This document shows positions 1 to 64,000 of a DNA stretch of 64,000 nt, piece after piece. The notes beneath the pieces are model-generated. The model was not told where the DNA came from and did not search any database. It saw only the letters and a list, made by a program, of their open reading frames with translations. The DNA comes from Utricularia gibba (Eukaryota > Streptophyta > Magnoliopsida > Lamiales > Lentibulariaceae): the NCBI GenBank assembly GCA_002189035.1, contig NEEC01000012.1, positions 3,286,001 through 3,350,000 on the forward strand, written 5' to 3'. Every line of letters begins with the position of its first letter. Position 1 is the first letter of the stretch. The position numbers and the translations under genes were made by a program.

Positions 1-74
1 CGTCACTCATATTATGTTTGCCAGCCATTTCCTACATCATGCATATAATAAAATAAAGCTCAAATCTTAACAGA

Positions 75-15158: not shown

Positions 15159-18100
15159 GACGCGATTGTGATTTTCGCCTTGCAAAACATCTGCGTTTTA
15201 TTGGGTGACGTGAAGTATGGGTTTTCGAGGCGATCTCTGAACAAGCTCTAGGTGTGTTCCTACCCGCAGCCTCATGGTGGCCTCGCACACCGTTCGGCAT
15301 CTCGTCGATATCTTGAAGATCAAGATGAGTCACGCTGCGCCGGCATACCGTTTCGAACCCTTTCCGAGCCGGTCACTTCCGTGTTGAAGCTTTTTCGTCG
15401 AGGATGCATAAGAGTTCGAATATCGCCTTATCTTAGCCTTCAGATGTGCCACAAATTGGCCACCACGTTCGCGACGATGCGACTCGGAACACGAGAATCG
15501 ATGCGATTGTGATTTTCGCCTTGAAAAACATCTGCGTTTTATTGGGTGACGTGAAGTATGGGTTTTCGAGGTGATCTCTGAAAAGCTCTGATGTGTCCCT
15601 ACCGCAGCCTCATGGTGGCCTCGCACACCGTTCGGCATCTCATCGATATCTGAAATCATGATGAGTCACGCTGCGCCCGGCATACCGTTTCGAACCCTTT
15701 CCGAGCCGGTCAGCTTCCGTGTTGAGCTTTTTCGTCCGAGGATGCATAAGAGTTCGAATATCGCCTTATCTTAGCCTTCAGATGTGCCACAAATTGGCCA
15801 CCACGTTCGCGACGATGCGACTCGGAACACGAGAATCGACGCGATTGTGATTTTCGCCTTGCAAAACATCTGCGTTTTATTGGATGACGTGAAGTATGGG
15901 TTTTCGAGGCGATCTCTGAACAAGCTCTGGGTGTGTCCCTACCCGCAGCCTCATGGTGGCCTCGCACACCGTTCGGTATTTCGGCCATATCCTGAAAATC
16001 GTGATGAGTCAGCTGCGCCCGGCATACCGTTTCGAACCCCTTTCCGTGCCGGTCAGCTTCCGTGTTGAAAGCTTCTTCGTCCGAGGATGCATCAGAGCTC
16101 GAATTATCGCCTTATATTAGCCTTCAGATGTGCCACAAATTGGCCACCACGTTCGCGACGATGCGACTCGGAACACGAGAATCGACGCGATTGTGATTTT
16201 CGCCTTGCAAAACATCTGCGTTTTATTGGATGACGTGAAGTATGGGTTTTCGAGGCGATCTCTGAACAAGCTCTGGGTGTGTCCTACCCGCAGCCTCATG
16301 GTGGCCTCGCACACCGTTCGGTATTTCGGCCATATCCTGAAAATCGTGATGAGTCACGCTGCGCCGGCATACCGTTTCGAACCCCTTTCCGTGCCGGTCA
16401 GCTTCCGTGTTGAAAGCTTCTTCGTCCGAGGATGCATCAGAGCTCGAATTATCGCCTTATATTAGCCTTCAGATGTGCCACAAATTGGCCACCACGTTCG
16501 CGACGATGCGACTCGGAACACGAGAATCGACGCGATTGTGATTTTCCTTGCAAAACATCTGCGTTTTATTGGTGACGTGAAGTATGGGTTTTCGAGCGAT
16601 CTCTGAACAAGCTCTGGGTGTGTCCCTACCGCAGCCTCATGGTGGCTCGCACACCGTTCGGCATCTCGTCGATATCTTGAAGGATGAGTCACGCTGCGCC
16701 CGGCATACCGTTTCGAAGCCCGTTCCGTGCCGGTCAGCTTCCGTGTTGAAAGCATCTTCGTCCGAGGATGCATCAGAGCTCGAATTATCGCCTTATATTA
16801 GCCTTCAGATGTGCCACAAATTGGCCACCACGTTCGCGACGATGCGACTCGGAACACGAGAATCGACGCGATTGTGATTTTCGGCTTGCAAAACATCTGC
16901 GTTTTATTGGGTGACGTGAAGTATGGGTTTTCGAGGCGATCTCTGAACAAGCTCTGGGTGTTCCCTACCGCAGCCTCATGGTGGCCTCGCACCGTTCGGT
17001 ATTTCGGCCATATCCTGAAACCGTGATGAGTCACGCTGCGCCCGGCATACCGTTTCGAACCCCTTTCCGTGCCGGTCAGCTTCCGTGTTGAAAGCTTTTC
17101 GTCCGAGGATGCATCAAAGCTCGAATTATCGCCTTATCTTAGCCTTCAGATGTGCCACAAATTGGCCACCACGTTCGCGACGATGCGACTCGGAACACGA
17201 GAATCGACGCGATTGTGATTTTCGGCTTGCAAAACATCTGCGTTTTATTGGATGACGTGAAGTATGGGTTTTCGAGGCGATCTCTGAACAAGCTCTGGGT
17301 GTGTCCCTACCCGCAGCCTCATGGTGGCCTCGCACACCGTTCGGTATTTCGGCATATCCTGAAAACCGTGATGAGTCAGCTGCGCCGGCATACCGTTTCG
17401 AACCCCTTTCCGTGCCGGTCAGCTTCCGTGTTGAAAGCTTCTTCGTCCGAGGATGCATCAGAGCTCGAATTATCGCCTTATATTAGCCTTCAGATGTGCC
17501 ACAAATTGGCCACCACGTTCGCGACGATGCGACTCGGAACACGAGAATCGACGCGATTGTGATTTTCGCCTTGCAAAACATCTGCGTTTTATGGGATGAC
17601 GTGAAGTATGGGTTTTCGAGGCGATCTCTGAACAAGCTCTGGGTGTGTCCCTACCCGCAGCCTCATGGTGGCCTCGCACACCGTTCGGTATTTCGGATAT
17701 CCTGAAAATCGTGATGAGTCACGCTGCGCCGGCATACCGTTTCGAACCCCTTTCCGTGCCGGTCAGCTTCCGTGTTGAAAGCTTCTTCGTCCGAGGATGC
17801 ATCAGAGCTCGAATTATCGCCTTATATTAGCCTTCAGATGTGCCACAAATTGGCCACCACGTTCGCGACGATGCGACTCGGAACACGAGAATCGACGCGA
17901 TTGTGATTTTCGCCTTGCAAAACATCTGCGTTTTATTGGATGACGTGAAGTATGGGTTTTCGAGCGATCTCTGAACAAGCTCTGGTGTGTCCCTACCGCA
18001 GCCTCATGGTGGCCTCGCACACCGTTCGGTATTCGTCGATATCTGAAGATCGTGATGAGTCACGCTGCGCCCGGCATACCGTTTCGAACCCTTTCCGTGC

Positions 18101-20560
18101 CGGTCAGCTTCCGTGTTGAAAGCTTCTTCGTCCGAGGATGCATCAGAGCTCGAATTATCGCCTTATATTAGCCTTCAGATGTGCACAAATTGGCCACCAC
18201 GTTCGCGACGACGAGAATCGACGCGATTGTGATTTTCGCCTTGCAAAACATCTGCGTTTTATTGGATGACGTGAAGTATGGGTTTTCGAGGCGATCTCTG
18301 AACAAGCTCTGGGTGTGTCCCTACCGCAGCCTCATGGTGGCCTCGCACACCGTTCGGTCGTCGATATCCTGAAACCGTGATGAGTCACGCTGCGGCCGGC
18401 ATACCGTTTCGAACCCCTTTCCGTGCCGGTCAGCTTCCGTGTTGAAAGCTTCTTCGTCCGAGGATGCATCAGAGCTCGAATTATCGCCTTATCTTAGCCT
18501 CAGATGTGCCACAAATTGGCCACCACGTTCGCGACGATGCGACTCGGAACACGAGAATCGACGCGATTGTGATTTTCGCCTTGCAAAACATCTGCGTTTT
18601 ATTGGGTGACGTGAAGTATGGGTTTTCGAGGCGATCTCTGAACAAGCTCTGGGTGTGTCCTACCGCAGCCTCATGGTGGCCTCGCACACCGTTCGGTATT
18701 TCGGCCATATCTGAAAACCGTGATGAGTCACGCTGCGCCGGCATACCGTTTCGAACCCCTTTCCGTGCCGGTCAGCTTCCGTGTTGAAAGCATCTTCGTC
18801 CGAGGATGCATCAGAGCTCGAATTATCGCCTTATATTAGCCTTCAGATGTGCCACAAATTGGCCACCACGTTCGCGACGATGCGACTCGGAACACGAGAA
18901 TCGACGCGATTGTGATTTTCGCCTTGCAAAACATCTGCGTTTTATTGGATGACGTGAAGTATGGGTTTTCGAGGCGATCTCTGAACAAGCTCTGGGTGTG
19001 TCCCTACCGCAGCCTCATGGTGGCCTCGCACACCGTTCGGTATTTCGGCATATCCTGAAATCGTGATGAGTCACGCTGCGCCGGCATACCGTTTCGAACC
19101 CCTTTCCGTGCCGGTCAGCTTCCGTGTTGAAAGCTTCTTCGTCCGAGGATGCATCAGAGCTCGAATTATCGCCTTATATTAGCCTTCAGATGTGCCACAA
19201 ATTGGCCACCACGTTCGCGACGATGCGACTCGGAACACGAGAATCGACGCGATTGTGATTTTCGCCTTGCAAAACATCTGCGTTTTATTGGTGACGTGAA
19301 GTATGGGTTTTCGAGGCGATCTCTGAACAAGCTCTGGGTGTGTCCCTACCGCAGCCTCATGGTGGCCTCGCACACCGTTCGGCATTCGTCGATATCTGAA
19401 ATCATGATGAGTCACGCTGCGCCCGGCATACCGTTTCGAACCCGTTCCGTGCCGGTCAGCTTCCGTGTTGAAAGCTTCTTCGTCCGAGGATGCATCAGAG
19501 CTCGAATTATCGCCTTATATTAGCCTTCAGATGTGCCACAAATTGGCCACCACGTTCGCGACGATGCGACTCGGAACACGAGAATCGACGCGATTGTGAT
19601 TTTCGCCTTGCAAAACATCTGCGTTTTATTGGGTGACGTGAAGTATGGGTTTTCGAGGCGATCTCTGAACAAGCTCTGGGTGTGTCCCTACCGCAGCCTC
19701 ATGGTGGCCTCGCACACCGTTCGGTATTTCGGCCATATCTTGAAAACCGTGATGAGTCACGCTGCGCCCGGCATACCGTTTCGAACCCCTTTCCGTGCCG
19801 GTCAGCTTCCGTGTTGAAAGCTTCTTCGTCCGAGGATGCATCAAAGCTCGAATTATCGCCTTATCTTAGCCTTCAGATGTGCCACAAATTGGCCACGTTC
19901 GCGACGATGCGACTCGGAACACGAGAATCGACGCGATTGTGATTTTCGCTTGCAAAACATCTGTTTTATTGGTGACGTGAAGTATGGGTTTTCGAGGCGA
20001 TCTCTGAACAAGCTCTGGGTGTGTCCTACCGCAGCCTCATGGTGGCCTCGCACACCGTTCGGTATTTCGGCCATATCCTGAAAACCGTGATGAGTCACGC
20101 TGCGCCCGGCATACCGTTTCGAACCCCTTTCCGTGCCGGTCAGCTTCCGTGTTGAAAGCTTCTTCGTCCGAGGATGCATCAGAGCTCGAATTATCGCCTT
20201 ATCTTAGCCTTCAGATGTGCCACAAATTGGCCACCACGTTCGCGACGATGCGACTCGGAACACGAGAATCGACGCGATTGTGATTTTCGCCTTGCAAAAC
20301 ATCTGCGTTTTATTGGATGACGTGAAGTATGGGTTTTCGAGGCGATCTCTGAACAAGCTCTGGGTGTGTCCCTACCCGCAGCCTCATGGTGGCCTCGCAC
20401 ACCGTTCGGTATTTCGGCCATATCCTGAAAATCGTGATGAGTCACGCTGCGCCGGCATACCGTTTCGAACCCCTTTCCGTGCCGGTCAGCTTCCGTGTTG
20501 AAAGCTTCTTCGTCCGAGGATGCATCAGAGCTCGAATTATCGCCTTATATTAGCCTTCAG

Positions 20561-21197
20561 ATGTGCCACAAATTGGCCACCACGTTCGCGACGATGCGAC
20601 TCGGAACACGAGAATCGACGCGATTGTGATTTTTCGCCTTGCAAAACATCTGCGTTTTATTGGTGACGTGAAGTATGGGTTTTCGAGGCGATCTCTGAAC
20701 AAGCTCGTTCTTTGGTCGTTTCGGCATCTCGTCGATATCTTGAAGATCATGATGAGTCACGCTGCGCCCGGCATCCGTTTCGAAGCCCGTTCCGAGCCGG
20801 TCATTCCGTGTTGAAAGCTTCTTCGTCCGAGGATGCATAGAGCTCGAATTATCGCCTTATATTAGCCTTCAGATGTGCCACAAATTGGCCACCACGTTTG
20901 ATCGAGAATCGACGCGATTGTGATTTTCGCCTTGCAAAACATCTGCGTTTTATTGGATGACGTGAAGTATGGGTTTTCGAGGCGATCTCTGAACAAGCTC
21001 TGGTGTGTCCCTACCGCAGCCTCATGGTGGCCTCGCACACCGTTCGGCATTCGTCGATATCCTGAAGACCGTGATGAGTCACGCTGCGCCGGCATACCGT
21101 TTCGAAGCCCGTTCCGTGCCGGTCAGCTTCCGTGTTGAAAGCTTCTTCGTCCGAGGATGCATCAGAGCTCGAATTATCGCCTTATCTTAGCCTTCAG
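20561..21197 (+). repeat. Two truncated satellite units (312 and 325 bp)
   Basis: In the first, the centre 'ctctgggtgtgt...cacaccg' is replaced by 'cgttctttggtcg' near 20706-20720. In the second, 'ttcgcgacgatgcgactcggaac' is replaced by 'tttgat' near 20898. Flanking units are ordinary. Confidence 0.8.
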
Positions 21198-24100
21198 ATG
21201 TGCCACAAATTGGCCACCACGTTCGCGACGATGCGACTCGGAACACGAGAATCGACGCGATTGTGATTTTCGCCTTGCAAAACATCTGCGTTTTATTGGA
21301 TGACGTGAAGTATGGGTTTTCGAGGCGATCTCTGAACAAGCTCTGGGTGTGTCCTACCGCAGCCTCATGGTGGCCTCGCACACCGTTCGGTATTTCGGCC
21401 ATATCCTGAAAACCGTGATGAGTCGCTGCGCCCGGCATACCGTTTCGAACCCCTTTCCGTGCCGGTCAGCTTCCGTGTTGAAAGCATCTTCGTCCGAGGA
21501 TGCATCAGAGCTCGAATTATCGCCTTATTAGCCTTCAGATGTGCCACAAATTGGCCACCACGTTCGCGACGATGCGACTCGGAACACGAGAATCGACGCG
21601 ATTGTGATTTTCGCCTTGCAAAACATCTGCGTTTTATTGGATGACGTGAAGTATGGGTTTTCGAGGCGATCTCTGAACAAGCTCTGGGTGTGTCCCTACC
21701 CGCAGCCTCATGGTGGCCTCGCACACCGTTCGGTATTTCGGCCATATCCTGAAAATCGTGATGAGTCAAGCTGCGCCGGCATACCGTTTCGAACCCCTTT
21801 CCGTGCCGGTCAGCTTCCGTGTTGAAAGCTTCTTCGTCCGAGGATGCATCAGAGCTCGAATTATCGCCTTATATTAGCCTTCAGATGTGCCACAAATTGG
21901 CCACCACGTTCGCGACGATGCGACTCGGAACACGAGAATCGACGCGATTGTGATTTTCGCTTGCAAAACATCTGCGTTTTATTGGGTGACGTGAAGTATG
22001 GGTTTTCGAGGCGATCTCTGAACAAGCTCTGGGTGTGTCCCTACCGCAGCCTCATGGTGGCCTCGCACACCGTTCGGCATCTCGTCGATATCTTGAAGAT
22101 CGTGATGAGTCACGCTGCGCCCGGCATACCGTTTCGAAGCCCTTTCCGAGCCGGTCAGCTTCCGTGTTGAAAGCTTCTTCGTCCGAGGATGCATCAGAGC
22201 TCGAATTATCGCCTTATCTTAGCCTTCAGATGTGCCACAAATTGGCCACCACGTTTCGCGACTCGGAACACGAGAATCGACGCGATTGTGATTTTCGCCT
22301 TGCAAAACATCTGCGTTTTATTGGATGACGTGAAGTATGGGTTTTCGATGCGATCTCTGAACAAGCTCTTGGTGTGTCCCTACCGCAGCCTCATGGTGGC
22401 CTCGCACACCGTTCGGCATCTCGTCGATATCCTGAAGACCGTGATGAGTCACGCTGCGCCGCATACCGTTTCGAAGCCCGTTCCGAGCCGTCATCTTCCG
22501 TGTTGAAAGCTTCTTCGTCCGAGGATGCATCAAAGCTCGAATTATCGCCTTATCTTAGCCTTCAGATGTGCCACAAATTGGCCACCACGTTCGCGACGAT
22601 GCGACTCGGAACACGAGAAATCGACGCGATTGTGATTTTCGCCTTGCAAAACATCTGCGTTTTATTGGATGACGTGAAGTATGGGTTTTCGAGGCGATCT
22701 CTGAACAAGCTCTGGGTGTGTCCCTACCGCAGCCTCATGGTGGCCTCGCACACCGTTCGGTATTTCGGCCATATCCTGAAAACCGTGATGAGTCACGCTG
22801 CGCCGGCATACCGTTTCGAACCCCTTTCCGTGCCGGTCAGCTTCCGTGTTGAAAGCATCTTCGTCCGAGGATGCATCAGAGCTCGAATTATCGCCTTATA
22901 TTAGCCTTCAGATGTGCCACAAATTGGCCACCACGTTCGCGACGATGCGACTCGGAACACGAGAATCGACGCGATTGTGATTTTCGCCTTGCAAAAACAT
23001 CTGCGTTTTATTGGGTGACGTGAAGTATGGGTTTTCGAGGCGATCTCTGAACAAGCTCTGGTGTGTCCCTACCCGCAGCCTCATGGTGGCCTCGCACACC
23101 GTTCGGCATCTCGTCGATATCTGAAGATCGTGATGAGTCACGCTGCGCCCGGCATACCGTTTCGAAGCCCTTTCCGAGCCGGTCAGCTTCCGTGTTGAAA
23201 GCTTCTTCGTCCGAGGATGCATCAGAGCTCGAATTATCGCCTTATCTTAGCCTTCAGATGTGCCACAAATTGGCCACCACGTTCGCGACGATGCGACTCG
23301 GAACACGAGAATCGACGCGATTGTGATTTTCGCTTGCAAAAGATCTGCGTTTTATTGGATGACGTGAAGTATGGGTTTTCGATGCGATCTCTGAACAAGC
23401 TCTGGGTGTCCCTACCGCAGCCTCATGGTGGCCTCGCACACCGTTCGGCATTTCGTCATATCTTGAAAATGATGAGTCACGCTGCGCCGGCATCCGTTTC
23501 GAAGCCCTTTCCGAGCCGGTCAGCTTCCGTGTTGAAAGCTTCTTCGTCCGAGGATGCATCAGAGCTCGAATTATCGCCTTATATTAGCCTTCAGATGTGC
23601 CACAAATTGGCCACCACGTTCGCGACGATGCGACTCGGAACACGAGAATCGACCGATTGTGATTTCGGCTTGCAAAACATCTGCGTTTTATTGGGTGACG
23701 TGAAGTATGGGTTTTCGAGGCGATCTCTGAACAAGCTCTGGGTGTGTTCCTACCGCAGCCTCATGGTGGCCTCGCACACCGTTCGGCATCTCGTCGATAT
23801 CTTGAAGATCATGATGAGTCACGCTGCGCCCGGCATACCGTTTCGAAGCCCGTTCCGAGCCGGTCAGCTTCCGTGTTGAAAGCTTCTTCGTCCGAGGATG
23901 CATCAGAGCTCGAATTATCGCCTTATATTAGCCTTCAGATGTGCCACAAATTGGCCACCACGTTCGCGACGATGCGACTCGGAAAACGAGAATCGACGCG
24001 ATTGTGATTTTCGGCTTGCAAAACATCTGCGTTTTATTGGGTGACGTGAAGTATGGGTTTTCGAGGCGATCTCTGAACAAGCTCTAGGTGTGTTCCTACC

Positions 24101-27100
24101 CGCAGCCTCATGGTGGCCTCGCACACGTTCGGTATTTCGGCCATATCTTGAAAACCGTCATGAGTCATGCTGCGCCGGCATACCGTTTCGAACCCCTTTC
24201 CGTGCCGGTCAGCTTCCGTGTTGAAAGCTTCTTCGTCCGAGGATGCATCAAGCTCGAATTATCGCCTTATCTTAGCCTTTAGATGTGCCACAAATTGGCC
24301 ACCACGTTTCGCGATCACGAGAATCGACGCGATTGTGATTTTCGCCTTGCAAAACATCTGCGTTTTATTGGATGACGTGAAGTATGGGTTTTCGAGGCGA
24401 TCTCTGAACAAGCTCTTGGTGTGTCCCTACCCGCAGCCTCATGGTGGCCTCGCGCACCGTTCGGCATCTCGTCGATATCCTGAAGACCGTGATGAGTCAC
24501 GCTGCGCCCGGCATACCGTTTCGAAGCCCGTTCCGAGCCGGTCATCTTCCGTGTTGAAAGCTTCTTCGTCCGAGGATCATCAGAGCTCGAATTATCGCCT
24601 TATCTTAGCCTTCAGATGTGCCACAAATTGGCCACCACGTTCGCGACGATGCGACTCGGAAAACGAGAATCGACGCGATTGTGATTTTCGCCTTGCAAAA
24701 CATCTGCGTTTTATTGGGTGACGTGAAGTATGGGTTTTCGAGGCGATCTCTGAACAAGCTCTTGGTGTGTCCCTACCGCAGCCTCATGGTGGCCTCGCAC
24801 ACCGTTCGGTATTTCGGCCATATCCTTGAAAACCGTGATGAGTCACGCTGCGCCCGGCATACCGTTTCGAACCCCTTTCCGTGCCGGTCAGCTTCCGTGT
24901 TGAAAGCTTCTTCGTCCGAGGATGCATCAGAGCTCGAATTATCGCCTTATCTTAGCCTTCAGATGTGCCACAAATTTGGCCACCACGTTCGCGACGATGC
25001 GACTCGGAACACGAGAATCGACGCGATTGTGATTTTCGCCTTGCAAAACATCTGCGTTTTATTGGATGACGTGAAGTATGGGTTTTCGAGGCGATCTCTG
25101 AACAAGCTCTGGGTGTGTCCCTACCGCAGCCTCATGGTGGCCTCGCACACCGTTCGGTATTTCGGCCATATCCTGAAAACCGTGATGAGTCACGCTGCGC
25201 CCGGCATACCGTTTCGAACCCCTTTCCGTGCCGGTCAGCTTCCGTGTTGAAAGCTTCTTCGTCCGAGGATGCATCAAAGCTCGAATTATCGCCTTATCTT
25301 AGCCTTCAGATGTGCCACAAATTGGCCACCACGTTCGCGACGATGCGACTCGGAACACGAGAATCGACGCGATTGTGATTTTCGCCTTGCAAAACATCTG
25401 CGTTTTATTGGTGACGTGAAGTATGGGTTTTCGAGGCGATCTCTGAACAAGCTCTGGTGTGTCCCTACCCGCAGCCTCATGGTGGCCTCGCACACCGTTC
25501 GGCATCTCGTCGATATCTTGAAGATCGTGATGAGTCACGCTGCGCCGGCATACCGTTTCGAAGCCCTTTCCGTGCCGGTCAGCTTCCGTGTTGAAAGCTT
25601 CTTCGTCCGAGGATGCATCAGAGCTCGAATTATCGCCTTATCTTAGCCTTCAGATGTGCACAAATTGGCCACCACGTTCGCGACGATGCGACTCGGAACA
25701 CGAGAATCGACGCGATTGTGATTTTCGCTTGCAAAACATCTGCGTTTTATTGTGACGTGAAGTATGGGTTTTCGAGGCGATCTCTGAACAAGCTCTGGGG
25801 TGTGTCCCTACCGCAGCCTCATGGTGGCCTCGCACACCGTTCGGTATTTCGGCCATATCCTGAAAACCGTGATGAGTCAAGCTGCGCCGGCATACCGTTT
25901 CGAACCCTTTCCGTGCGGTCAGCTTCCGTGTTGAAAGCTTCTTCGTCCGAGGATGCATCAGAGCTCGAATTATCGCCTTATCTTAGCCTTCAGATGTGCC
26001 ACAAATTGGCCACCACGTTCGCGACGATGCGACTCGGAACACGAGAATCGACGCGATTGTGATTTTCGCCTTGCAAAACATCTGCGTTTTTATTGGTGAC
26101 GTGAAGTATGGGTTTTCGAGGCGATCTCTGAACAAGCTCTGGGTGTGTCCCTACCGCAGCCTCATGGTGGCCTCGCACACCGTTCGGCATCTCGTCGATA
26201 TCTTGAAGATCGTGATGAGTCACGCTGCGCCCGGCATACCGTTTCGAAGCCCTTTCCGAGCCGGTCAGCTTCCGTGTTGAAAGCTTCTTCGTCCGAGGAT
26301 GCATAAGAGCTCGAATTATCGCCTTATCTTAGCCTTCAGATGTGCCACAAATTGGCCACCACGTTCGCGACGATGCGACTCGGAACACGAGAATCGACGC
26401 GATTGTGATTTTCGCTTGCAAAACATCTGCGTTTTATTTTTGACGTGAAGTATGGGTTTTCGATGCGATCTCTGAACAAGCTCTGGGTGTGTCCCTACCG
26501 CAGCCTCATGGTGGCCTCGCACACCGTTCGGTATTTCGGCCATATCCTGAAAACCGTGATGAGTCACGCTGCGCCCGGCATACCGTTTCGAACCCTTTCC
26601 GTGCCGGTCAGCTTCCGTGTTGAAAGCTTCTTCGTCCGAGGATGCATCAGAGCTCGAATTATCGCCTTATATTAGCCTTCAGATGTGCCACAAATTGGCC
26701 ACCACGTTCGCGACGATGCGACTCGGAACACGAGAATCGACGCGATTGTGATTTTCGCCTTGCAAAACATCTGCGTTTTATTGGGTGACGTGAAGTATGG
26801 GTTTTCGAGGCGATCTCTGAACAAGCTCTGGGTGTGTCCCTACCCGCAGCCTCATGGTGGCCTCGCACACCGTTCGGCATTCTCGATATCTTGAAATCGT
26901 GATGAGTCACGCTGCGCCGGCATACCGTTTCGAAGCCCTTTCCGTGCCGGTCAGCTTCCGTGTTGAAAGCTTCTTCGTCCGAGGATGCATAAGAGCTCGA
27001 AATTATCGCCTTATCTTAGCCTTCAGATGTGCCACAAATTGGCCACCACGTTCGCGACGATGCGACTCGGAAAACGAGAATCGACGCGATTGTGATTTTC

Positions 27101-27299
27101 GCTTGCAAAACATCTGCGTTTTATTGGATGACGTGAAGTATGGGTTTTCGAGGCGATCTCTGAACAAGCTCTAGGTGTGTTCCTACCCGCAGCCTCATGG
27201 TGGCCTCGCACACCGTTCGGTATTTCGGCCATATCTTGAAAACCGTGATGAGTCATGCTGCGCCGGCATACCGTTTCGAACCCCTTTCCGTGCCGGTCA

Positions 27300-34886: not shown

Positions 34887-35189
34887 ATGTGCCACAAATT
34901 GGGCCCCACGTTCGGAGACTACGAGAATCGACGCGATTGTGATTTTCGGTTGCAAAAGATCTGCGTTTTATTGGATGACGTGAAGTATGGGTTTTCGAGG
35001 CGATCTCTGAACAAGCTCTGGGTGTGTCCTACCCGCAGCCTCATGGTGGCCTCGCACACCGTTCGCGTCGATTAAAAAGATGATGTCACGCTGCGCCCGG
35101 CATCCGTTTCGAAGTCATCTTCCGTGTTGAAAGCTTCTTCGTCCGAGGATGCATCAGAGCTCGAATTATCGCCTTATATTAGCCTTCAG
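34887..35189 (+). repeat. Degenerate 303-bp satellite unit
   Basis: This unit has several losses: 'gggccccacgttcggagactacgag' at its start, 'cgttcgcgtcgattaaaaag' in its centre and 'tttcgaagtcatcttcc' near its end. Neighbours are about 338-347 bp. Confidence 0.8.
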
Positions 35190-38100: not shown

Positions 38101-38258
38101 ACCGTTCGGTATTTCGGATATCCTGAAAACCGTGATGAGTCACGCTGCGCCGGCATACCGTTTCGAACCCCTTTCCGTGCCGGTCAGCTTCCGTGTTGAA
38201 AGCATCTTCGTCCGAGGATGCATCAGAGCTCGAATTATCGCCTTATATTAGCCTTCAG

Positions 38259-44500: not shown

Positions 44501-44739
44501 GGCGATCTCTGAACAAGCTCTGGGTGTGTCCCTACCCGCAGCCTCATGGTGGCCTCGCACACCGTTCGGCATCTCGTCGATATCTTGAAACAAGATGAGT
44601 CACGCTGCGCCGGCATACCGTTTCGAACCCTTTCCGTGCCGGTCAGCTTCCGTGTTGAAAGCATCTTCGTCCGAGGATGCATCAGAGCTCGAATTATCGC
44701 CTTATATTAGCCTTCAGATGTGCCACAAATTGGCCACCA

Positions 44740-45720
44740 CGTTCGCGACGATGCCGCTCGACTCACGGTGGCCGACGATCGATTGTGACCGTTTTCGCTT
44801 CATCTCGTCGATATCTGAACATCTGCGATTTTATTGGGTCAGACGTGCCCGGCATACCTTTTTCGGCGATCTCTGAACAAGCGTCAGCTGTTCCTACCCG
44901 CAGCCTCATGGTGGCCTCGCACACCGTTCGGCATCTCGTCGATATCTGAGGATGAAGATCAAGAGAATCACGCTCTTATCGCCGCCTTCAGATGTGCCAC
45001 AAATTGGCCACCACGTTCGCGACGATGCGACTCGGAACACGAGAATCGACGCGATTGTGATTTTCGCGTTGCCGGAACAGCTCTCCGTGTTGATTGGGAC
45101 GTCTTCGTCCGAGGATGCATTTTCGAGGCTCGAATTATCAAGCTCTTATATTAGCCTTCAGATGTGCCACAAATTGGCCACCACGTTCGCGACGATGCGA
45201 CTCGGAACACGAGAATCGACGCGATTGTGATTTTCGCTCTTGCAAAACCGTCTCGGCATTGGGTGACGTCGATATCTTATGAGGTTTTCGAGAGTCTCTG
45301 CTGCAAGCTCGGCATACCGTGTTCCTACCCGCAGCCTCATGCGTGGCCTGCGCTCCACTGTTGAAGCATGCGTCGATATCCTTGATGCAACAAGAGAATC
45401 ACGCTCTTATCGCCCCTTCAGATGTGCCACAAATTGGCCACCACGTTCGCGACGATGCGACTCGGAACACGAGAATCGACGCGATTGTGATTTTCGCCTT
45501 GCAAAATCTGCCGATCAGCTTCCGTGTTGAAGCATGGGTTCGTTCGAGGAGGATGATCAAGAGCTCGAATTATCGCCTTATATTAGCCTTCAGATGTGCC
45601 ACAAATTGGCCACCACGTTCGCGACGATGCGACTCGGAACACGAAATCGCTCGCGATTGTGACACGCGTTCGCAAGCAACATCGCGTTCGATATCCTGAT
45701 GAATGATGTAGTGGTTTTCG
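44740..45720 (+). repeat. Scrambled satellite block with half-length units
   Basis: Unit starts ('atgtgccacaaattgg') fall at 44718, 44992, 45162, 45422, 45594 and 45938, giving spacings of 274, 170, 260, 172 and 344 bp in place of about 344. The first 80-90 bp of each unit are normal. The remainder interleaves fragments of the two halves, for example 'ttgattgggacg' with 'tcttcgtccgaggatgca', 'ttttcgagg' with 'ctcgaattatc' and 'aagctct'. No foreign sequence is present. It may be a real rearrangement or an assembly consensus made from reads aligned in two registers. Confidence 0.85.
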
Positions 45721-51066: not shown

Positions 51067-51686
51067 ATGTGCCACAAATTGGCCCTACCCGCAGCCTCAT
51101 GGTGGCCTCGCACACCGTTCGGTATTTCGGCGGATATCCTGAAAACCGTGCCGGTCATGAGTCACGCTGCGCCTTATATTAGCCTTCAGGCATACCGTTT
51201 CGAACCCCTTTCCGTGCCGGTCAGCTTCCGTGTTGAAAGCATCTTCGTCCGAGGATGCATCAGAGCTCGAATTATCGCCTTATATTAGCCTTCAGATGTG
51301 CCACAAATTGGCCACCACGTTCGCGACGATGCGACTCGGAACACGAGAATCGACGCGATTGTGATTTTCGCCTTGCAAAACATCTGCGTTTTATTGGGTG
51401 ACGTGAAGTATGGGTTTTCGAGGCGATCTCTGAACAAGCTCTCGAATTATCGGCCTGTGTTCCTACCCGCAGCCTCATGGTGGCCTCGCACACCGTTCGG
51501 CATTCGGCGATATCCTGATATCTGCGCCCGGCATACCGAAAGCTTCCGTGTTGAAAGCATGATGAGTCACGCTGCGCCCGGCATACCGTTTCGAACCCGT
51601 TTCCGTGCCGGTCAGCTTCCGTGTTGAAAGCATCTTCGTCCGAGGATGCATCAGAGCTCGAATTATCGCCTTATATTAGCCTTCAG
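51067..51686 (+). repeat. Second scrambled satellite block (229- and 391-bp units)
   Basis: The unit starting at 51067 jumps from 'aaattggcc' to 'ctacccgcag', losing about 140 bp. It then has misplaced pieces 'gtgccggtcatgag' and 'gccttatattagccttcagg' inside its second half. The next unit, 51296-51686, contains 'ctcgaattatcgg' within its centre and a repeated 'gcccggcatacc' plus 'agcttccgtgttgaaagcat' near 51527-51560. All pieces are satellite. Confidence 0.85.
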
Positions 51687-54600
51687 ATGTGCCACAAATT
51701 GGCCACCACGTTCGCGACGATGCGACTCGGAACACGAGAATCGACGCGATTGTGATTTTCGCCTTGCAAAACATCTGTTTTATTGGGTGACGTGAAGTAT
51801 GGGTTTTCGAGGCGATCTCTGAACAAGCTCTGGGTGTTCCTACCCGCAGCCTCATGGTGGCCTCGCACACCGTTCGGCATCTCGTCGATATCTTGAAGAT
51901 CAAGATGAGTCACGCTGCGCCCGGCATACCGTTTCGAACCCCTTTCCGTGCCGGTCAGCTTCCGTGTTGAAAGCATCTTCGTCCGAGGATGCATCAGAGC
52001 TCGAATTATCGCCTTATATTAGCCTTCAGATGTGCCACAAATTGGCCACCACGTTCGCGACGATGCGTTTCGGAACACGAGAATCGACGCGATTGTGATT
52101 TTCGCTTGCAAAAGATCTGCGTTTTATTGGATGACGTGAAGTATGGGTTTTCGAGCGATCTCTGAACAAGCTCTGGGTGTCCCTACCCGCAGCCTCATGG
52201 TGGCCTCGCACACCGTTCGGTATTTCGGCGATATCTGAAAACCGTGATGAGTCACGCTGCGCCCGGCATACCGTTTCGAACCCCTTTCCGTGCCGGTCAG
52301 CTTCCGTGTTGAAAGCATCTTCGTCCGAGGATGCATCAGAGCTCGAATTATCGCCTTATATTAGCCTTCAGATGTGCCACAAATTGGCCACCACGTTCGC
52401 GACGATGCGACTCGGAACACGAGAATCGACGCGATTGTGATTTTCGCCTTGCAAAACATCTGCGTTTTATTGGGTGACGTGAAGTATGGGTTTTCGAGGC
52501 GATCTCTGAACAAGCTCTGGTGTGTTCCTACCCGCAGCCTCATGGTGGCCTCGCACACCGTTCGGCATCTCGTCGATATCTTGAAGATCATGATGAGTCA
52601 CGCTGCGCCCGGCATCCGTTTCGAACCCCTTTCCGTGCCGGTCAGCTTCCGTGTTGAAAGCATCTTCGTCCGAGGATGCATCAGAGCTCGAATTATCGCC
52701 TTATATTAGCCTTCAGATGTGCCACAAATTGGCCACCACGTTCGCGACGATGCGACTCGGAACACGAGAATCGACGCGATTGTGATTTTCGCTTGCAAAA
52801 CATCTGCGTTTATTGGGTGACGTGAAGTATGGGTTTTCGAGGCGATCTCTGAACAAGCTCTGGGTGTGTCCTACCCGCAGCCTCATGGTGGCCTCGCACA
52901 CCGTTCGGATTCGTCGATATCTTGAAGATCAAGATGAGTCACGCTGCGCCCGGCATACCGTTTCGAACCCTTTCCGTGCCGGTCAGCTTCCGTGTTGAAA
53001 GCATCTTCGTCCGAGGATGCATCAGAGCTCGAATTATCGCCTTATATTAGCCTTCAGATGTGCCACAAATTGGCCACCACGTTCGCGACGATGACTCGGA
53101 ACACGAGAATCGACGCGATTGTGATTTTCGCTTGCAAAATCTGCGTTTTATTGGATGACGTGAAGTATGGGTTTTCGAGGCGATCTCTGAACAAGCTCTG
53201 GGTGTGTCCCTACCCGCAGCCTCATGGTGGCCTCGCACACCGTTCGGTATTTCGGCGATATCCTGAAAACCGTGATGAGTCACGCTGCGCCGGCATACCG
53301 TTTCGAACCCCTTTCCGTGCCGGTCAGCTTCCGTGTTGAAAGCATCTTCGTCCGAGGATGCATCAGAGCTCGAATTATCGCCTTATATAGCCTTCAGATG
53401 TGCCACAAATTGGCCACCACGTTCGCGACGATGCGACTCGGAACACGAGAATCGACGCGATTGTGATTTTCGCCTTGCAAAACATCTGTTTTATTGGGTG
53501 ACGTGAAGTATGGGTTTTCGAGGCGATCTCTGAACAAGCTCTGGGTGTGTCCCTACCCGCAGCCTCATGGTGGCCTCGCACACCGTTCGGTATTCGGCGA
53601 TATCTGAAATGATGAGTCACGCTGCGCCGGCATACCGTTTCGAACCCCTTTCCGTGCCGGTCAGCTTCCGTGTTGAAAGCATCTTCGTCCGAGGATGCAT
53701 CAGAGCTCGAATTATCGCCTTATATTAGCCTTCAGATGTGCCACAAATTGGCCACCACGTTCGCGACGATGCGTTTCGGAACACGAGAATCGACGCGATT
53801 GTGATTTTCGCCTTGCAAAACATCTGCGTTTTATTGGGTGACGTGAAGTATGGGTTTTCGAGGCGATCTCTGAACAAGCTCTGGTGTGTCCCTACCCGCA
53901 GCCTCATGGTGGCCGCACACCGTTCGGTCTCGTCGATATCTTGAAATCAAGATGAGTCACGCTGCGCCCGGCATACCGTTTCGAACCCCTTTCCGTGCCG
54001 GTCAGCTTCCGTGTTGAAAGCTCTTCGTCCGAGGATGCATCAGAGCTCGAATTATCGCCTTATATTAGCCTTCAGATGTGCCACAAATTGGCCACCGTTC
54101 GCGACGATGCGACTCGGAACACGAGAATCGACGCGATTGTGATTTTCGCCTTGCAAAACATCTGCGTTTTATTGGGTGACGTGAAGTATGGGTTTTCGAG
54201 GCGATCTCTGAACAAGCTCTGGTGTGTTCCTACCCGCAGCCTCATGGTGGCCTCGCACACCGTTCGGCATCTCGTCGATATCTTGAAGATCAAGATGAGT
54301 CACGCTGCGCCCGGCATACCGTTTCGAACCCCTTTCCGTGCCGGTCAGCTTCCGTGTTGAAAGCATCTTCGTCCGAGGATGCATCAGAGCTCGAATTATC
54401 GCCTTATATTAGCCTTCAGATGTGCCACAAATTGGCCACCACGTTCGCGACGATGCGACTCGGAACACGAGAATCGACGCGATTGTGATTTTCGCCTTGC
54501 AAAACATCTGCGTTTTATTGGGTGACGTGAAGTATGGGTTTTCGAGGCGATCTCTGAACAAGCTCTGGGTGTGTCCTACCCGCAGCCTCATGGTGGCCTC

Positions 54601-57600
54601 GCACACCGTTCGGCAATCTGAAAAAGATGAGTCACGCTGCGCCCGGCATACCGTTTCGAACCCTTTCCGTGCCGGTCAGCTTCCGTGTTGAAAGCATCTT
54701 CGTCCGAGGATGCATCAGAGCTCGAATTATCGCCTTATATTAGCCTTCAGATGTGCCACAAATTGGCCACCACGTTCGCGACGATGACGGAACACGAGAA
54801 TCGACGCGATTGTGATTTTCGCTTGCAAAACATCTGCGTTTTATTGGATGACGTGAAGTATGGGTTTTCGAGCGATCTCTGAACAAGCTCTGGGTGTGTC
54901 CCTACCCGCAGCCTCATGGTGGCCTCGCACACCGTTCGGTATTTCGGCGATATCCTGAAATCGTGATGAGTCACGCTGCGCCGGCATACCGTTTCGAACC
55001 CCTTTCCGTGCCGGTCAGCTTCCGTGTTGAAAGCATCTTCTTCGTCCGAGGATGCATCAGAGCTCGAATTATCGCCTTATATTAGCCTTCAGATGTGCCA
55101 CAAATTGGCCACCACGTTCGCGACGATGCGACTCGGAACACGAGAATCGACGCGATTGTGATTTTCGCCTTGCAAAACATCTGCGTTTTATTGGGTGACG
55201 TGAAGTATGGGTTTTCGAGGCGATCTCTGAACAAGCTCTAGGTGTGTTCCTACCCGCAGCCTCATGGTGGCCTCGCACACCGTTCGGCATTCGTCGATAT
55301 CTTGAAGATCAAGATGAGTCACGCTGCGCCGGCATACCGTTTCGAACCCTTCCGTGCCGGTCAGCTTCCGTGTTGAAAGCATCTTCGTCCGAGGATGCAT
55401 CAGAGCTCGAATTATCGCCTTATAAGCCTTCAGATGTGCCACAAATTGGCCACCACGTTCGCGACGATGCGACTCGGAACACGAGAATCGACGCGATTGT
55501 GATTTTCGCCTTGCAAAACATCTGCGTTTTATTGGGTGACGTGAAGTATGGGTTTTCGAGGCGATCTCTGAACAAGCTCTGGTGTGTCCCTACCCGCAGC
55601 CTCATGGTGGCCTCGCACACCGTTCGTATTTCGGCGATATCCTGAAAGATGAGTCACGCTGCGCCGGCATACCGTTTCGAACCCCTTTCCGTGCCGGTCA
55701 GCTTCCGTGTTGAAAGCATCTTCGTCCGAGGATGCATCAGAGCTCGAATTATCGCCTTATATTAGCCTTCAGATGTGCCACAAATTGGCCACCACGTTCG
55801 CGACGATGCGACTCGGAACACGAGAATCGACGCGATTGTGATTTTCGCCTTGCAAAACATCTGTTTTATTGGTGACGTGAAGTATGGGTTTTCGAGGCGA
55901 TCTCTGAACAAGCTCTGGGTGTGTCCCTACCGCAGCCTCATGGTGGCCTCGCACACCGTTCGGTATTTCGATATCCTGAAAAAGTGATGAGTCACGCTGC
56001 GCCGGCATACCGTTTCGAACCCCTTTCCGTGCCGGTCAGCTTCCGTGTTGAAAGCATCTTCGTCCGAGGATGCATCAGAGCTCGAATTATCGCCTTATAT
56101 TAGCCTTCAGATGTGCCACAAATTGGCCACCACGTTCGCGACGATGCGACTCGGAACACGAGAATCGACGCGATTGTGATTTTCGGCCTTGCAAAATCTG
56201 CGTTTTATTGGATGACGTGAAGTATGGGTTTTCGAGGCGATCTCTGAACAAGCTCTGGGTGTGTCCCTACCCGCAGCCTCATGGTGGCCTCGCACACCGT
56301 TCGGCATTTCGTCGATATCTGAAAACCGTGATGAGTCACGCTGCGCCGGGCACCGTTTCGAACCCCTTTCCGTGCCGGTCAGCTTCCGTGTTGAAAGCAT
56401 CTTCGTCCGAGGATGCATCAGAGCTCGAATTATCGCCTATATTAGCCTTCAGATGTGCCACAAATTGGCCACCACGTTCGCGACGATGCGACTCGGAACA
56501 CGAGAATCGACGCGATTGTGATTTTCGCCTTGCAAAACATCTGCGTTTTATTGGGTGACGTGAAGTATGGGTTTTCGAGCGATCTCTGAACAAGCTCTGG
56601 GTGTGTCCTACCCGCAGCCTCATGGTGGCCTCGCACACCGTTCGGCATTCGTCGATATCTTGAAAGATGAGTCACGCTGCGCCCGGCATACCGTTTCGAA
56701 CCCCTTTCCGTGCCGGTCAGCTTCCGTGTTGAAAGCATCTTCGTCCGAGGATGCATCAGAGCTCGAATTATCGCCTTATATTAGCCTTCAGATGTGCCAC
56801 AAATTGGCCACCACGTTCGCGACGATGCGTTTCGGAACACGAGAATCGACGCGATTGTGATTTTCGGCTTGCAAAAGATCTGCGTTTTATTGGATGACGT
56901 GAAGTATGGGTTTTCGAGCGATCTCTGAACAAGCTCTGGGTGTGTCCCTACCCGCAGCCTCATGGTGGCCTCGCACACCGTTCGGTATTTCGGCGATATC
57001 CTGAAAATGATGAGTCACGCTGCGCCGGCATACCGTTTCGAACCCCTTTCCGTGCCGGTCAGCTTCCGTGTTGAAAGCATCTTCGTCCGAGGATGCATCA
57101 GAGCTCGAATTATCGCCTTATATTAGCCTTCAGATGTGCCACAAATTGGCCACCACGTTCGCGACGATGCGACTCGGAACACGAGAATCGACGCGATTGT
57201 GATTTTCGCCTTGCAAAACATCTGTGTTTTATTGGGTGACGTGAAGTATGGGTTTTCGAGGCGATCTCTGAACAAGCTCTAGGTGTGTTCCTACCCGCAG
57301 CCTCATGGTGGCCTCGCACACCGTTCGGCTCGTCGATATTTGAAATCAAGATGAGTCACGCTGCGCCCGGCATACCGTTTCGAACCCTTTCCGTGCCGGT
57401 CAGCTTCCGTGTTGAAAGCATCTTCGTCCGAGGATGCATCAGAGCTCGAATTATCGCCTTATATTAGCCTTCAGATGTGCCACAAATTGGCCACCACGTT
57501 CGCGACGATGCGACTCGGAACACGAGAATCGACGCGATTGTGATTTTCGCTTGCAAAACATCTGCGTTTTATTGGGTGACGTGAAGTATGGGTTTTCGAG

Positions 57601-60600
57601 GCGATCTCTGAACAAGCTCTGGTGTGTCCTACCCGCAGCCTCATGGTGGCCTCGCACACCGTTCGGCATTTCGTCGATATCTTGAAATCAAGATGAGTCA
57701 CGCTGCGCCCGGCATACCGTTTCGAACCCCTTTCCGTGCCGGTCAGCTTCCGTGTTGAAAGCATCTTCGTCCGAGGATGCATCAGAGCTCGAATTATCGC
57801 CTTATATTAGCCTTCAGATGTGCCACAAATTGGCCACACGTTCGCGACGATGCGACTCGGAACACGAGAATCGACGCGATTGTGATTTTCGCCTTGCAAA
57901 ACATCTGCGTTTTATTGGGTGACGTGAAGTATGGGTTTTCGAGGCGATCTCTGAACAAGCTCTGGTGTGTTCCTACCCGCAGCCTCATGGTGGCCTCGCA
58001 CACCGTTCGGTATTCGGCGATATCCTGAAAACCGTGATGAGTCACGCTGCGCCGGCATACCGTTTCGAACCCCTTTCCGTGCCGGTCAGCTTCCGTGTTG
58101 AAAGCATCTTCGTCCGAGGATGCATCAGAGCTCGAATTATCGCCTTATATTAGCCTTCAGATGTGCCACAAATTGGCCACCACGTTCGCGACGATGAGTT
58201 TCGGAACACGAGAATCGACGCGATTGTGATTTTCGGCTTGCAAAAGATCTGCGTTTTATTGGATGACGTGAAGTATGGGTTTTCGAGCGATCTCTGAACA
58301 AGCTCTGGGTGTGTCCTACCCGCAGCCTCATGGTGGCCTCGCACACCGTTCGGTATTCGTCGATATCTTGAAGATCCGTGATGAGTCACGCTGCGCCCGG
58401 CATACCGTTTCGAACCCTTTCCGTGCCGGTCAGCTTCCGTGTTGAAAGCATCTTCGTCCGAGGATGCATCAGAGCTCGAATTATCGCCTTATATTAGCCT
58501 TCAGATGTGCCACAAATGGCCACCACGTTCGCGACGATGAGTTCGGAACACGAGAATCGACGCGATTGTGATTTTCGCTTGCAAAATCTGCGTTTTATTG
58601 GATGACGTGAAGTATGGGTTTTCGATGCGATCTCTGAACAAGCTCTGGGTGTGTCCCTACCCGCAGCCTCATGGTGGCCTCGCACACCGTTCGGTATTTC
58701 GGCGATATCCTGAAAACCGTGATGAGTCACGCTGCGCCGGCATACCGTTTCGAACCCCTTTCCGTGCCGGTCAGCTTCCGTGTTGAAAGCATCTTCGTCC
58801 GAGGATGCATCAGAGCTCGAATTATCGCCTTATATTAGCCTTCAGATGTGCCACAAATTTGGCCACCACGTTCGCGACGATGCGACTCGGAACACGAGAA
58901 TCGACGCGATTGTGATTTTCGCCTTGCAAAACATCTGCGTTTTATTGGGTGATGTGAAGTATGGGTTTTCGAGGCGATCTCTGAACAAGCTCTGGTGTGT
59001 CCCTACCCGCAGCCTCATGGTGGCCTCGCACACCGTTCGGTATCTCGTCGATATCTTGAAATCAAGATGAGTCACGCTGCGCCCGGCATACCGTTTCGAA
59101 CCCTTTCCGTGCCGGTCAGCTTCCGTGTTGAAAGCATCTTCGTCCGAGGATGCATCAGAGCTCGAATTATCGCCTTATATTAGCCTTCAGATGTGCCACA
59201 AATTGGCCACCACGTTCGCGACGATGCGACTCGGAACACGAGAATCGACGCGATTGTGATTTTCGCTTGCAAAACATCTGCGTTTTATTGGGTGACGTGA
59301 AGTATGGGTTTTCGAGGCGATCTCTGAACAAGCTCTGGTGTGTCCTACCCGCAGCCTCATGGTGGCCTCGCACACCGTTCGGTATTCGGCGATATCCTGA
59401 AATGATGAGTCACGCTGCGCCGCATACCGTTTCGAACCCTTTCCGTGCCGGTCAGCTTCCGTGTTGAAAGCATCTTCGTCCGAGGATGCATCAGAGCTCG
59501 AATTATCGCCTTATATTAGCCTTCAGATGTGCCACAAATTGGCCACCACGTTCGCGACGATGCGACTCGGAACACGAGAATCGACGCGATTGTGATTTTC
59601 GCCTTGCAAAACATCTGCGTTTTATTGGGTGACGTGAAGTATGGGTTTTCGAGGCGATCTCTGAACAAGCTCTGGTGTTCCCTACCCGCAGCCTCATGGT
59701 GGCCTCGCACACCGTTCGGCATCTCGTCGATATCCTGAAGATCAAGATGAGTCACGCTGCGCCCGGCATACCGTTTCGAACCCCTTCCGTGCCGGTCAGC
59801 TTCCGTGTTGAAAGCATCTTCGTCCGAGGATGCATCAGAGCTCGAATTATCGCCTTATATTAGCCTTCAGATGTGCCACAAATTGGCCACCACGTTCGCG
59901 ACGATGCGACTCGGAACACGAGAATCGACGCGATTGTGATTTTCGCCTTGCAAAACATCTGCGTTTTATTGGGTGACGTGAAGTATGGGTTTTCGAGGCG
60001 ATCTCTGAACAAGCTCTGGTGTGTCCTACCCGCAGCCTCATGGTGGCCTCGCACACCGTTCGGTATTCGGCGATATCCTGAAAACCGTGATGAGTCACGC
60101 TGCGCCGGCATACCGTTTCGAACCCCTTTCCGTGCCGGTCAGCTTCCGTGTTGAAAGCATCTTCGTCCGAGGATGCATCAGAGCTCGAATTATCGCCTTA
60201 TATTAGCCTTCAGATGTGCCACAAATTGGCCACCACGTTCGCGACGATGCGACTCGGAACACGAGAATCGACGCGATTGTGATTTTCGGCTTGCAAAAGA
60301 TCTGCGTTTTATTGGGTGACGTGAAGTATGGGTTTTCGAGGCGATCTCTGAACAAGCTCTGGGTGTGTCCCTACCCGCAGCCTCATGGTGGCCTCGCACA
60401 CCGTTCGGTATTTCGGCGATATCCTGAAAACCGTGATGAGTCACGCTGCGCTCGGCATACCGTTTCGAACCCTTTCCCGTGCCGGTCAGCTTCCGTGTTG
60501 AAAGCATCTTCGTCCGAGGATGCATCAGAGCTCGAATTATCGCCTTATATTAGCCTTCAGATGTGCCACAAATTGGCCACCACGTTCGCGACGATGCGAC

Positions 60601-61240
60601 TCGGAACACGAGAATCGACGCGATTGTGATTTTCGCCTTGCAAAACATGCGTTTTTATTGGGTGACGTGAAGTATGGGTTTTCGAGGCGATCTCTGAACA
60701 AGCTCTGGTGTGTCCCTACCCGCAGCCTCATGGTGGCCTCGCACACCGTTCGGCATTTCGGCGATATCTTGAAGATGAGTCACGCTGCGCCCGGCATACC
60801 GTTTCGAACCCTTTCCGTGCCGGTCAGCTTCCGTGTTGAAAGCATCTTCGTCCGAGGATGCATCAAGCTCGAATTATCGCCTTATAGTAGCCTTCAGATG
60901 TGCCACAAATTGGCCACCACGTTCGCGACGATGCGACTCGGAACACGAGAATCGACGCGATTGTGATTTTCGCTTGCAAAACATCTGCGTTTTATTGGTG
61001 ACGTGAAGTATGGGTTTTCGAGCGATCTCTGAACAAGCTCTGGGTGTGTCCCTACCCGCAGCCTCATGGTGGCCTCGCACACCGTTCGGTATTTCGGCGA
61101 TATCCTGAAAACCGTGATGAGTCACGCTGCGCCGGCATACCGTTTCGAACCCCTTTCCGTGCCGGTCAGCTTCCGTGTTGAAAGCATCTTCGTCCGAGGA
61201 TGCATCAGAGCTCGAATTATCGCCTTATATTAGCCTTCAG

Positions 61241-61484
61241 ATGTGCCACAAATTGGCCACCACGTTCGCGACGATGAGTTTCGGAACACGAAATCGACGC
61301 GATTGTGATTTTCTCATGGTGGCCTCGCACCGTTCGGTTCGGCATATCCTGAAAACCGTGATGAGTCACGCTGCGCCGGCATACCGTTTCGAACCCCTTT
61401 CCGTGCCGGTCAGCTTCCGTGTTGAAAGCTTCTTCGTCCGAGGATGCATCAGAGCTCGAATTATCGCCTTATATTAGCCTTCAG
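61241..61484 (+). repeat. 244-bp satellite unit with an internal deletion
   Basis: After 'gcgattgtgatttt' the sequence jumps to 'ctcatggtggcctcgcaccg', losing about 95-100 bp of the unit middle. The unit also carries the 'gatgagtttcgg' variant. Flanking units are full size. Confidence 0.85.
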
Positions 61485-64000
61485 ATGTGCCACAAATTGG
61501 CCACCACGTTCGCGACGATGCGACTCGGAACACGAGAATCGACGCGATTGTGATTTTCGCTTGCAAAACATCTGCGTTTTATTGGGTGACGTGAAGTATG
61601 GGTTTTCGAGGCGATCTCTGAACAAGCTCTGGTGTGTTCCTACCCGCAGCCTCATGGTGGCCTCGCACACCGTTCGGTATTTCGGCCATATCCTGAAACC
61701 GTGATGAGTCACGCTGCGCCCGGCATACCGTTTCGAACCCTTTCCGTGCCGGTCAGCTTCCGTGTTGAAAGCTTCTTCGTCCGAGGATGCATCAGAGCTC
61801 GAATTATCGCCTTATCTTAGCCTTCAGATGTGCCACAAATTGGCCACCACGTTCGCGACGATGCGACTCGGAACACGAGAATCGACGCGATTGTGATTTT
61901 CGCCTTGCAAAACATCTGCGTTTTATTGGGTGACGTGAAGTATGGGTTTTCGAGGCGATCTCTGAACAAGCTCTGGGTGTGTTCCTACCCGCAGCCTCAT
62001 GGTGGCCTCGCACACCGTTCGGTATTCGTCGATATCTGAAAACGATGAGTCACGCTGCCCGGCATACCGTTTCGAACCCCTTTCCGTGCCGGTCAGCTTC
62101 CGTGTTGAAAGCATCTTCGTCCGAGGATGCATCAGAGCTCGAATTATCGCCTTATATTAGCCTTCAGATGTGCCACAAATTGGCCACCACGTTCGCGACG
62201 ATGCGACTCGGAACACGAGAATCGACGCGATTGTGATTTTCGCCTTGCAAAACATCTGCGTTTTATTGGGTGACGTGAAGTATGGGTTTTCGAGGCGATC
62301 TCTGAACAAGCTCTGGGTGTGTCCCTACCCGCAGCCTCATGGTGGCCTCGCACACCGTTCGGTATTTTCGATATCTGAAATGATGAGTCACGCTGCGCCG
62401 GCATACCGTTTCGAACCCCTTTCCGTGCCGGTCAGCTTCCGTGTTGAAAGCTTCTTCGTCCGAGGATGCATCAGAGCTCGAATTATCGCCTTATATTAGC
62501 CTTCAGATGTGCCACAAATTGGCCACCACGTTCGCGACGATGCGACTCGGAACACGAGAATCGACGCGATTGTGATTTTCGCCTTGCAAAACATCTGCGT
62601 TTTATTGGGTGACGTGAAGTATGGGTTTTCGAGGCGATCTCTGAACAAGCTCTGGTGTGTTCCTACCCGCAGCCTCATGGTGGCCTCGCACACCGTTCGG
62701 CATTCGTCGATATCTGAAAACGATGAGTCACGCTGCGCCGGCATACCGTTTCGAACCCTTTCCGTGCCGGTCAGCTTCCGTGTTGAAAGCATCTTCGTCC
62801 GAGGATGCATCAGAGCTCGAATTATCGCCTTATATTAGCCTTCAGATGTGCCACAAATTGGCCACCACGTTCGCGACGATGCGACTCGGAACACGAGAAT
62901 CGACGCGATTGTGATTTTCGCCTTGCAAAACATCTGCGTTTTATTGGTGACGTGAAGTATGGGTTTTCGAGGCGATCTCTGAACAAGCTCTGGGTGTGTT
63001 CCTACCGCAGCCTCATGGTGGCCTCGCACACCGTTCGGCATCCATATCTGAAATGATGAGTCACGCTGCGCCGGCATACCGTTTCGAACCCCTTTCCGTG
63101 CCGGTCAGCTTCCGTGTTGAAAGTTCGTCCGAGGATGCATCAGAGCTCGAATTATCGCCTTATATTAGCCTTCAGATGTGCCACAAATTGGCCACCACGT
63201 TCGCGACGATGCGACTCGGAACACGAGAATCGACGCGATTGTGATTTTCGGCTTGCAAAACATCTGCGTTTTATTGGATGACGTGAAGTATGGGTTTTCG
63301 AGGCGATCTCTGAACAAGCTCTGGGTGTGTCCCTACCCGCAGCCTCATGGTGGCCTCGCACACCGTTCGGTATTTCGGCGATATCCTGAAAACCGTGATG
63401 AGTCACGCTGCGCCGGCATACCGTTTCGAACCCCTTTCCGTGCCGGTCAGCTTCCGTGTTGAAAGCATCTTCGTCCGAGGATGCATCAGAGCTCGAATTA
63501 TCGCCTTATATTAGCCTTCAGATGTGCCACAAATTGGCCACCACGTTCGCGACGATGCGACTCGGAACACGAGAATCGACGCGATTGTGATTTTCGCTTG
63601 CAAAACATCTGCGTTTTATGGTGACGTGAAGTATGGGTTTTCGAGGCGATCTCTGAACAAGCTCTGGGTGTGTCCCTACCCGCAGCCTCATGGTGGCCTC
63701 GCACACCGTTCGGGTCGATATCCTGAAACCGTGATGAGTCACGCTGCGCCGGCATACCGTTTCGAACCCCTTTCCGTGCCGGTCAGCTTCCGTGTTGAAA
63801 GCATCTTCGTCCGAGGATGCATCAGAGCTCGAATTATCGCCTTATATTAGCCTTCAGATGTGCCACAAATTGGCCACCACGTTCGCGACGATGCGACTCG
63901 GAACACGAGAATCGACGCGATTGTGATTTTCGGCTTGCAAAACATCTGCGTTTTATTGGATGACGTGAAGTATGGGTTTTCGAGGCGATCTCTGAACAAG

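Follow-up and report, generated by a model that had tools for sequence, protein, structure and literature searches.

The single-base deletions that crowd a satellite array of Utricularia gibba fall preferentially on the sites at which its repeat units differ from one another and, judged from the assembled sequence alone, they are very probably consensus drop-outs from mis-registered reads. The sequence analysed, hereafter the window, is a 64,000-bp stretch of contig C244 (C244:3286001-3350000) in an assembly of 100.09 Mb and 516 contigs. The initial annotation had already read the deletions as likely consensus drop-out and not biology. That reading is supported by their enrichment in polymorphic columns, their lack of linkage to haplotype and their clustering in "dirty" units, and further by their inverse relation to divergence, their recurrence on contigs C32 and C49, and a stretch within the window where two registers are mixed.

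The satellite array and its setting

Positions 1-4742 of the window hold ordinary land-plant genes, ahead of the satellite start at 4743. They include a PMR5N/PC-Esterase gene (Table 1) and a weak MYB-CC match. Two tandem copies of 292 bp each, 90% identical, lie at 2143-2735 in an apparent intron of the PMR5/PC-Esterase gene. TRF and unit segmentation show head-to-tail units over tens of kb, and the array runs past the window up to the end of the contig (3,405,668 bp). The satellite is present also on other contigs, including C32, C49, C53, C82 and C372, and the arrays on C32 (59 kb) and C49 (40 kb) were used as independent comparisons. Sites are named by unit column (s14, s41 and so on), with GATTGTGATTTTCG as column 0. 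Units in C32:1-28000 are more diverse and have SNPs with four-unit periodicity; the C32 array in total has 42 polymorphic columns. A subtype of C32:1-28000, with A at s205, T at s214 and A at s237, is rare or absent in C244 beyond 15.3 kb.

Table 1. Features of the window, in window coordinates.
Feature	Position	Strand	Basis and remarks
PMR5N/PC-Esterase gene	within 1-4742	-	
Satellite array, ~343-348 bp unit, head-to-tail	4743-64000	+	TRF, unit segmentation; about 170 units in window
Array edge, diverged, few drop-outs	4743-14700	+	pairwise divergence 4-14%; 5.5-10.5% of diagnostic sites dropped
Homogeneous array with probable consensus drop-outs	15300-64000	+	0.6-2% divergence outside drop sites; 19-35% of diagnostic sites without base
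Scrambled stretch, 8-20 bp words alternating between two unit registers	44755-45555	+	36 phase switches in 44-46 kb
Similar but smaller register break with scrambled words	51084-51560	+	TRF break
Unit cut to ~245 bp, out-of-register join	61313-61558	+	

The satellite resembles plant satellites with subtype units and dimeric higher-order repeats in its ~345-bp unit, its head-to-tail array and its A and B subtypes; here the A-B dimer is resolved in contig C49. There, at 8.6-14 kb, the array is apparently resolved as a dimer of ~690 bp, the best-resolved piece of array seen, and its A units mostly retain the T at s65 and s177 that is usually missing from A units elsewhere. Over 900 exact-motif copies of the satellite are assembled. 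A satellite in such numbers is of interest because the putative centromeres of the U. gibba genome have been stated to be without satellite repeats (PMC8333044).

Deletions fall at subtype sites

After alignment of the units to an IUPAC consensus, every single-base deletion was assigned the full interval of its possible positions. The 130 units at 15.3-64 kb carry 418 single-base deletions, or 9.4/kb, and 267 of these (64%) can be placed on a column with two common bases. Uniform deletion would put 11% there (p = 5e-144), and deletion confined to homopolymers 16% (OR 9.0, p = 6e-105). If polymorphism is pooled across all arrays, 357 of the 418 fall on polymorphic columns. The enrichment recurs on contig C32 (OR 9.3) and in the C244 tail (OR 7.2). 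Errors at columns that differ between copies are a mark of a collapsed or mis-registered consensus, and they are found here at an odds ratio of 9 over the homopolymer null. The unit alignment and per-column tally that the initial annotation had proposed thus place the missing bases at subtype sites, as it had claimed, and do not spread them evenly.

Its observation that deletions are much rarer at monomorphic positions was also borne out. Invariant runs of 2, 3 and 4 lose a base in 0.8, 0.5 and 1.7% of units, against 9, 15 and 13% for runs that touch a polymorphic base; invariant TTTT, AAA and GGG runs are barely affected. Every trio of two alleles and a drop-out listed in that annotation exists. 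In the window beyond 15.3 kb, the counts for allele, allele and drop are 65/29/34 for ttcg[C/G]cttg, 67/45/16 for attg[G/A], 116/9/11 for tcga[G/T], 78/11/33 for ctct[G/A], 77/23/24 for gtgt[C/T], 71/2/55 for gcgc[C/T], 37/34/36 for atc[C/T], 92/5/33 for tac[C/T], 72/18/33 for gaa[C/G] and 30/54/30 for [C/T]tcg, while ggc[C/G]at is real yet weak, with 5 drops. Double calls, in which both alleles stand in the sequence, number 0-1 per site versus 11-55 drops. Deletion forms such as TTTTCGCTTGC, GTGTGTCCTAC and GATATCTGA reach frequencies of 15-35% in the assembly.

Deletions are mostly unlinked to haplotype

The state of a SNP can be predicted from the other columns of its unit (AUC mostly 0.75-1.0), and the state of a deletion mostly cannot (AUC mostly 0.34-0.70). 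Linkage of deletions to SNPs is therefore unlike that of SNPs to each other, with partial exceptions at s177 and s101, where deletions are partly haplotype-linked (AUC 0.71-0.85). Drop rates are about equal on both imputed haplotypes (for instance 22/16% at s14, 24/24% at s94, 26/21% at s195, 19/24% at s137), and bases outside homopolymers are dropped too (A at s86 in 19%, G at s195 in 21%, T at s65 in 29%). On the same haplotype, units that miss one diagnostic base miss more of the others. Such clustering of losses is seen in B-type units at s86 (9.6% versus 24%, p = 1e-7), s195 (p = 5e-7) and s137 (p = 1e-8), and among A-type units the other drop-outs number 0.65 in those with T at s177 versus 1.93 (p = 3e-6). 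The number of drop-outs per unit is overdispersed in C32; overdispersion was also looked for in the window and was absent there. At a lag of four units, deletion states correlate at 0.22 in the window (null sd 0.034) and 0.13 in C32, a correlation that resembles that of SNPs.

At the two sites with partial linkage, both CCC to CC changes, the variation in length could be genuine. A mixed case, in which s177 (GCGCCCGGC to GCGCCGGC) and perhaps s101 vary truly in length and the other sites are drop-outs, is compatible with the drop-out explanation for those remaining sites, and we consider it unlikely. Besides the AUC at s177, it is favoured by a deletion frequency, in homogeneous parts, of about 55-65% on an A-like background versus about 15-35% on a B-like one. 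It is favoured as well by genome-wide counts, made with exact patterns and not by whole-unit search, of 39 copies with T, 1011 with C and 453 with the deletion; the 453 copies of the deletion form GCGCCGGC are set against the 39 of GCGCTCGGC. However, T is present in intact A units of the best-resolved stretch, on C49, and other drop-outs are fewer in A units with T than in A units with a gap. Copies with T are concentrated at the diverged edge of C244 and in C49, at its clean start.

A context rule and a model of the consensus

Loss of a base needs an allele that extends an adjacent run, a rule absent from the initial annotation. About 19-24% of units lack the base at G[C/G]C, T[C/T]CC, C[C/T]T, T[G/A]GG, A[C/G]CCC and T[C/T]T. 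Where neither allele extends a run, as in GG[T/C]AT, CCG[A/T]GC, TCA[G/T]CT and TTC[A/G]TC, loss occurs in 0-1% of units, even at a minor-allele frequency of 45%. A pair-HMM with CLR-like error rates was used to obtain the cost of omitting the base from a 50:50 mixture of alleles. Ordered by its margin, 23 SNP sites follow the observed ranking (rho = 0.89, p = 1e-8), and the model makes the shortening of invariant runs far costlier. At plain error rates the gap comes close to the alleles and never wins outright; it wins at three sites, only with very costly mismatches. Since omission does not win at plain rates, the model supports the context rule and not a particular program.

The initial annotation had pictured a consensus that meets two conflicting bases and calls neither, and this part of its account fared poorly. 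In the plain majority vote that its wording describes, both bases are dropped if neither reaches half of the reads. Simulation of such a vote does make mixed sites lose bases and leaves invariant runs intact, but it predicts drop-outs at every SNP whatever the context. With a 50% threshold and indel-only alignment, it ranks the sites in the opposite order to the observed rates (rho = -0.57), as against 0.89 for the insertion-tolerant pair-HMM. A vote of this kind is very unlikely to be the mechanism, though it could act in an early step, with errors mended later at sites without runs. On the modelling, the process would be better described as an insertion-tolerant likelihood consensus acting on a mixture.

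We propose that drop-outs would arise as follows. The true array would consist of near-identical units of ~345 bp in at least two subtypes, A and B, which appear to alternate as an A-B dimer in the seemingly well-resolved stretch of C49. Noisy long reads of different units, probably PacBio CLR, would be placed in the wrong register, and the reads piled on one unit would be a mixture of subtypes. At sites such as G[C/G]C, T[C/T]CC, C[C/T]T and A[C/G]CCC, where an allele lengthens a neighbouring run, omission with both alleles explained as extra bases would cost about as little as a mismatch in half of the reads, and because the two are about equally cheap to an insertion-tolerant consensus, the base would be lost. 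At sites where no run is lengthened by either allele, the consensus would simply choose one of them.

Divergence dependence and natural controls

The drop rate is inversely related to local divergence (rho = -0.80, n = 34 bins, p = 1.4e-8), also within each contig, and errors thus multiply as copies become more alike, as in a collapsed or mis-registered consensus. The claim that deletions are slight at 4.7-15 kb and heavy beyond holds, with 5.5% and 10.5% of diagnostic sites affected at 4.7-14.7 kb and 19-35% thereafter. Contigs C32 and C49 give the same drop-out picture as the window. With identical alleles and contexts, 2-14% of sites are dropped in C32 0-28 kb versus about 18-35% in the window beyond 16 kb. 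Onset in C244 comes about 10 kb into the array. The PacBio genome of U. gibba has been described as an HGAP assembly with a contig N50 of 3.4 Mb, 88x coverage and a mean subread of 10.4 kb (PMC5793159). The depth of onset is near that subread length, and divergence drops at the same place, so that the two causes are inseparable there. The chemistry was probably PacBio CLR and the consensus program probably HGAP/Quiver.

Some observations fit drop-out less well. Within a site, drop-outs are not commoner where intact neighbours are locally mixed (stratified z -2 to -4), which we ascribe, after the fact, to merging that also hides the minor allele. In the C244 tail, some sites drop in 30-50% of units without a visible second allele. 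Together with the four-unit periodicity and the linkage at s177 and s101, these results are compatible with merged reads hiding a minor allele.

Real one-base indel alleles of the satellite, arisen by mutation and spread with the units, would account for the four-unit periodicity of deletion states and for the partial linkage at s177 and s101. They are nevertheless highly improbable as the general explanation: the majority of deletions lack linkage and are found on either background, they are rare in divergent, better-resolved parts with identical alleles and contexts such as C32 0-28 kb, and about ten independent spreads would be needed, every one at a SNP site. Moreover, the A subtype has T at s177 in clean parts of C49 and at the window edge, and the gap can be a lost T. 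On linkage, inherited indels are rejected at most sites, with s177 and s101 excepted. An expansion model, with the short form ancestral and the alleles as independent run expansions, was also rejected; neither A at GG[G/A]T nor T at A[G/T]G, for example, extends a run, and among the diverged edge units the full-length forms are in the majority.

Most of the listed drop-outs could also be read as run shortening in one allele, as expected of platform errors in homopolymer length that are independent of polymorphism, but only 0.5-2% of units lack a base in invariant runs of 2-4, the enrichment persists against the homopolymer-only null, and loss is equally frequent on haplotypes whose base lies outside runs. 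One and the same CCC run keeps its length in places where it is invariant and is unstable in those with a T allele. In the TACCCGCAG run, 30/51 units lack a C at 15-33 kb, where the T allele is present; in places where the run is invariant the figures are 3/80, 0/86 and 2/47. The rate is not set by run length regardless of polymorphism. On the invariant-run controls, homopolymer error alone is rejected, and we regard this source as hardly credible. A real process on heteroduplex between the subtypes, whether gene conversion or mismatch processing, that removes a mismatched base next to a run with a frequency that rises with copy similarity, is very improbable.

Register mixing

Within the window, read mis-registration is signalled most clearly by the scrambled stretch at 44,755-45,555, where the paired registers have phases near 134 and 262, next 216 and 61, and finally 50 and 147. 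Most other 2-kb bins of the homogeneous array have 0-6 phase switches. The extended sequence is worse over much of 78-111 kb, where the switches reach 66 per 2 kb, and in both places the sequence itself holds the out-of-register mixing that marks a mis-registered consensus. Unit lengths in C244:3364001-3397000 are chaotic (about 160-690 bp), with many register switches; in the last ~8 kb before the contig end the array is regular again. No biological process is known to us in which the words of two registers come to alternate, and merged out-of-register reads do produce such interleaving.

In large repeats of CHM13 chromosome X, ambiguous mappings let polishing degrade the sequence (PMC7484160). 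Before marker-assisted polishing, those repeats were like the present array in their near-identical copies, misplaced reads and poorer consensus inside the repeat. The U. gibba array differs in having a specific signature, the loss of the diagnostic base at run-adjacent subtype sites. A limited search of the open literature found no paper describing exactly this signature.

Implications

The missing bases should almost certainly not be treated as real mutations. Studies of the satellite on this assembly, whether of unit length, subtypes, mutation rate or higher-order structure, would count as variation hundreds of indels that are artefacts, and for users of the assembly a true A-B dimer would dissolve into noise. 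The signature is a loss of bases from subtype sites next to runs, without linkage to haplotype and rising with copy similarity. The assembly alone suffices to detect it, and noisy long-read genomes could be checked with it for mis-registered repeats.
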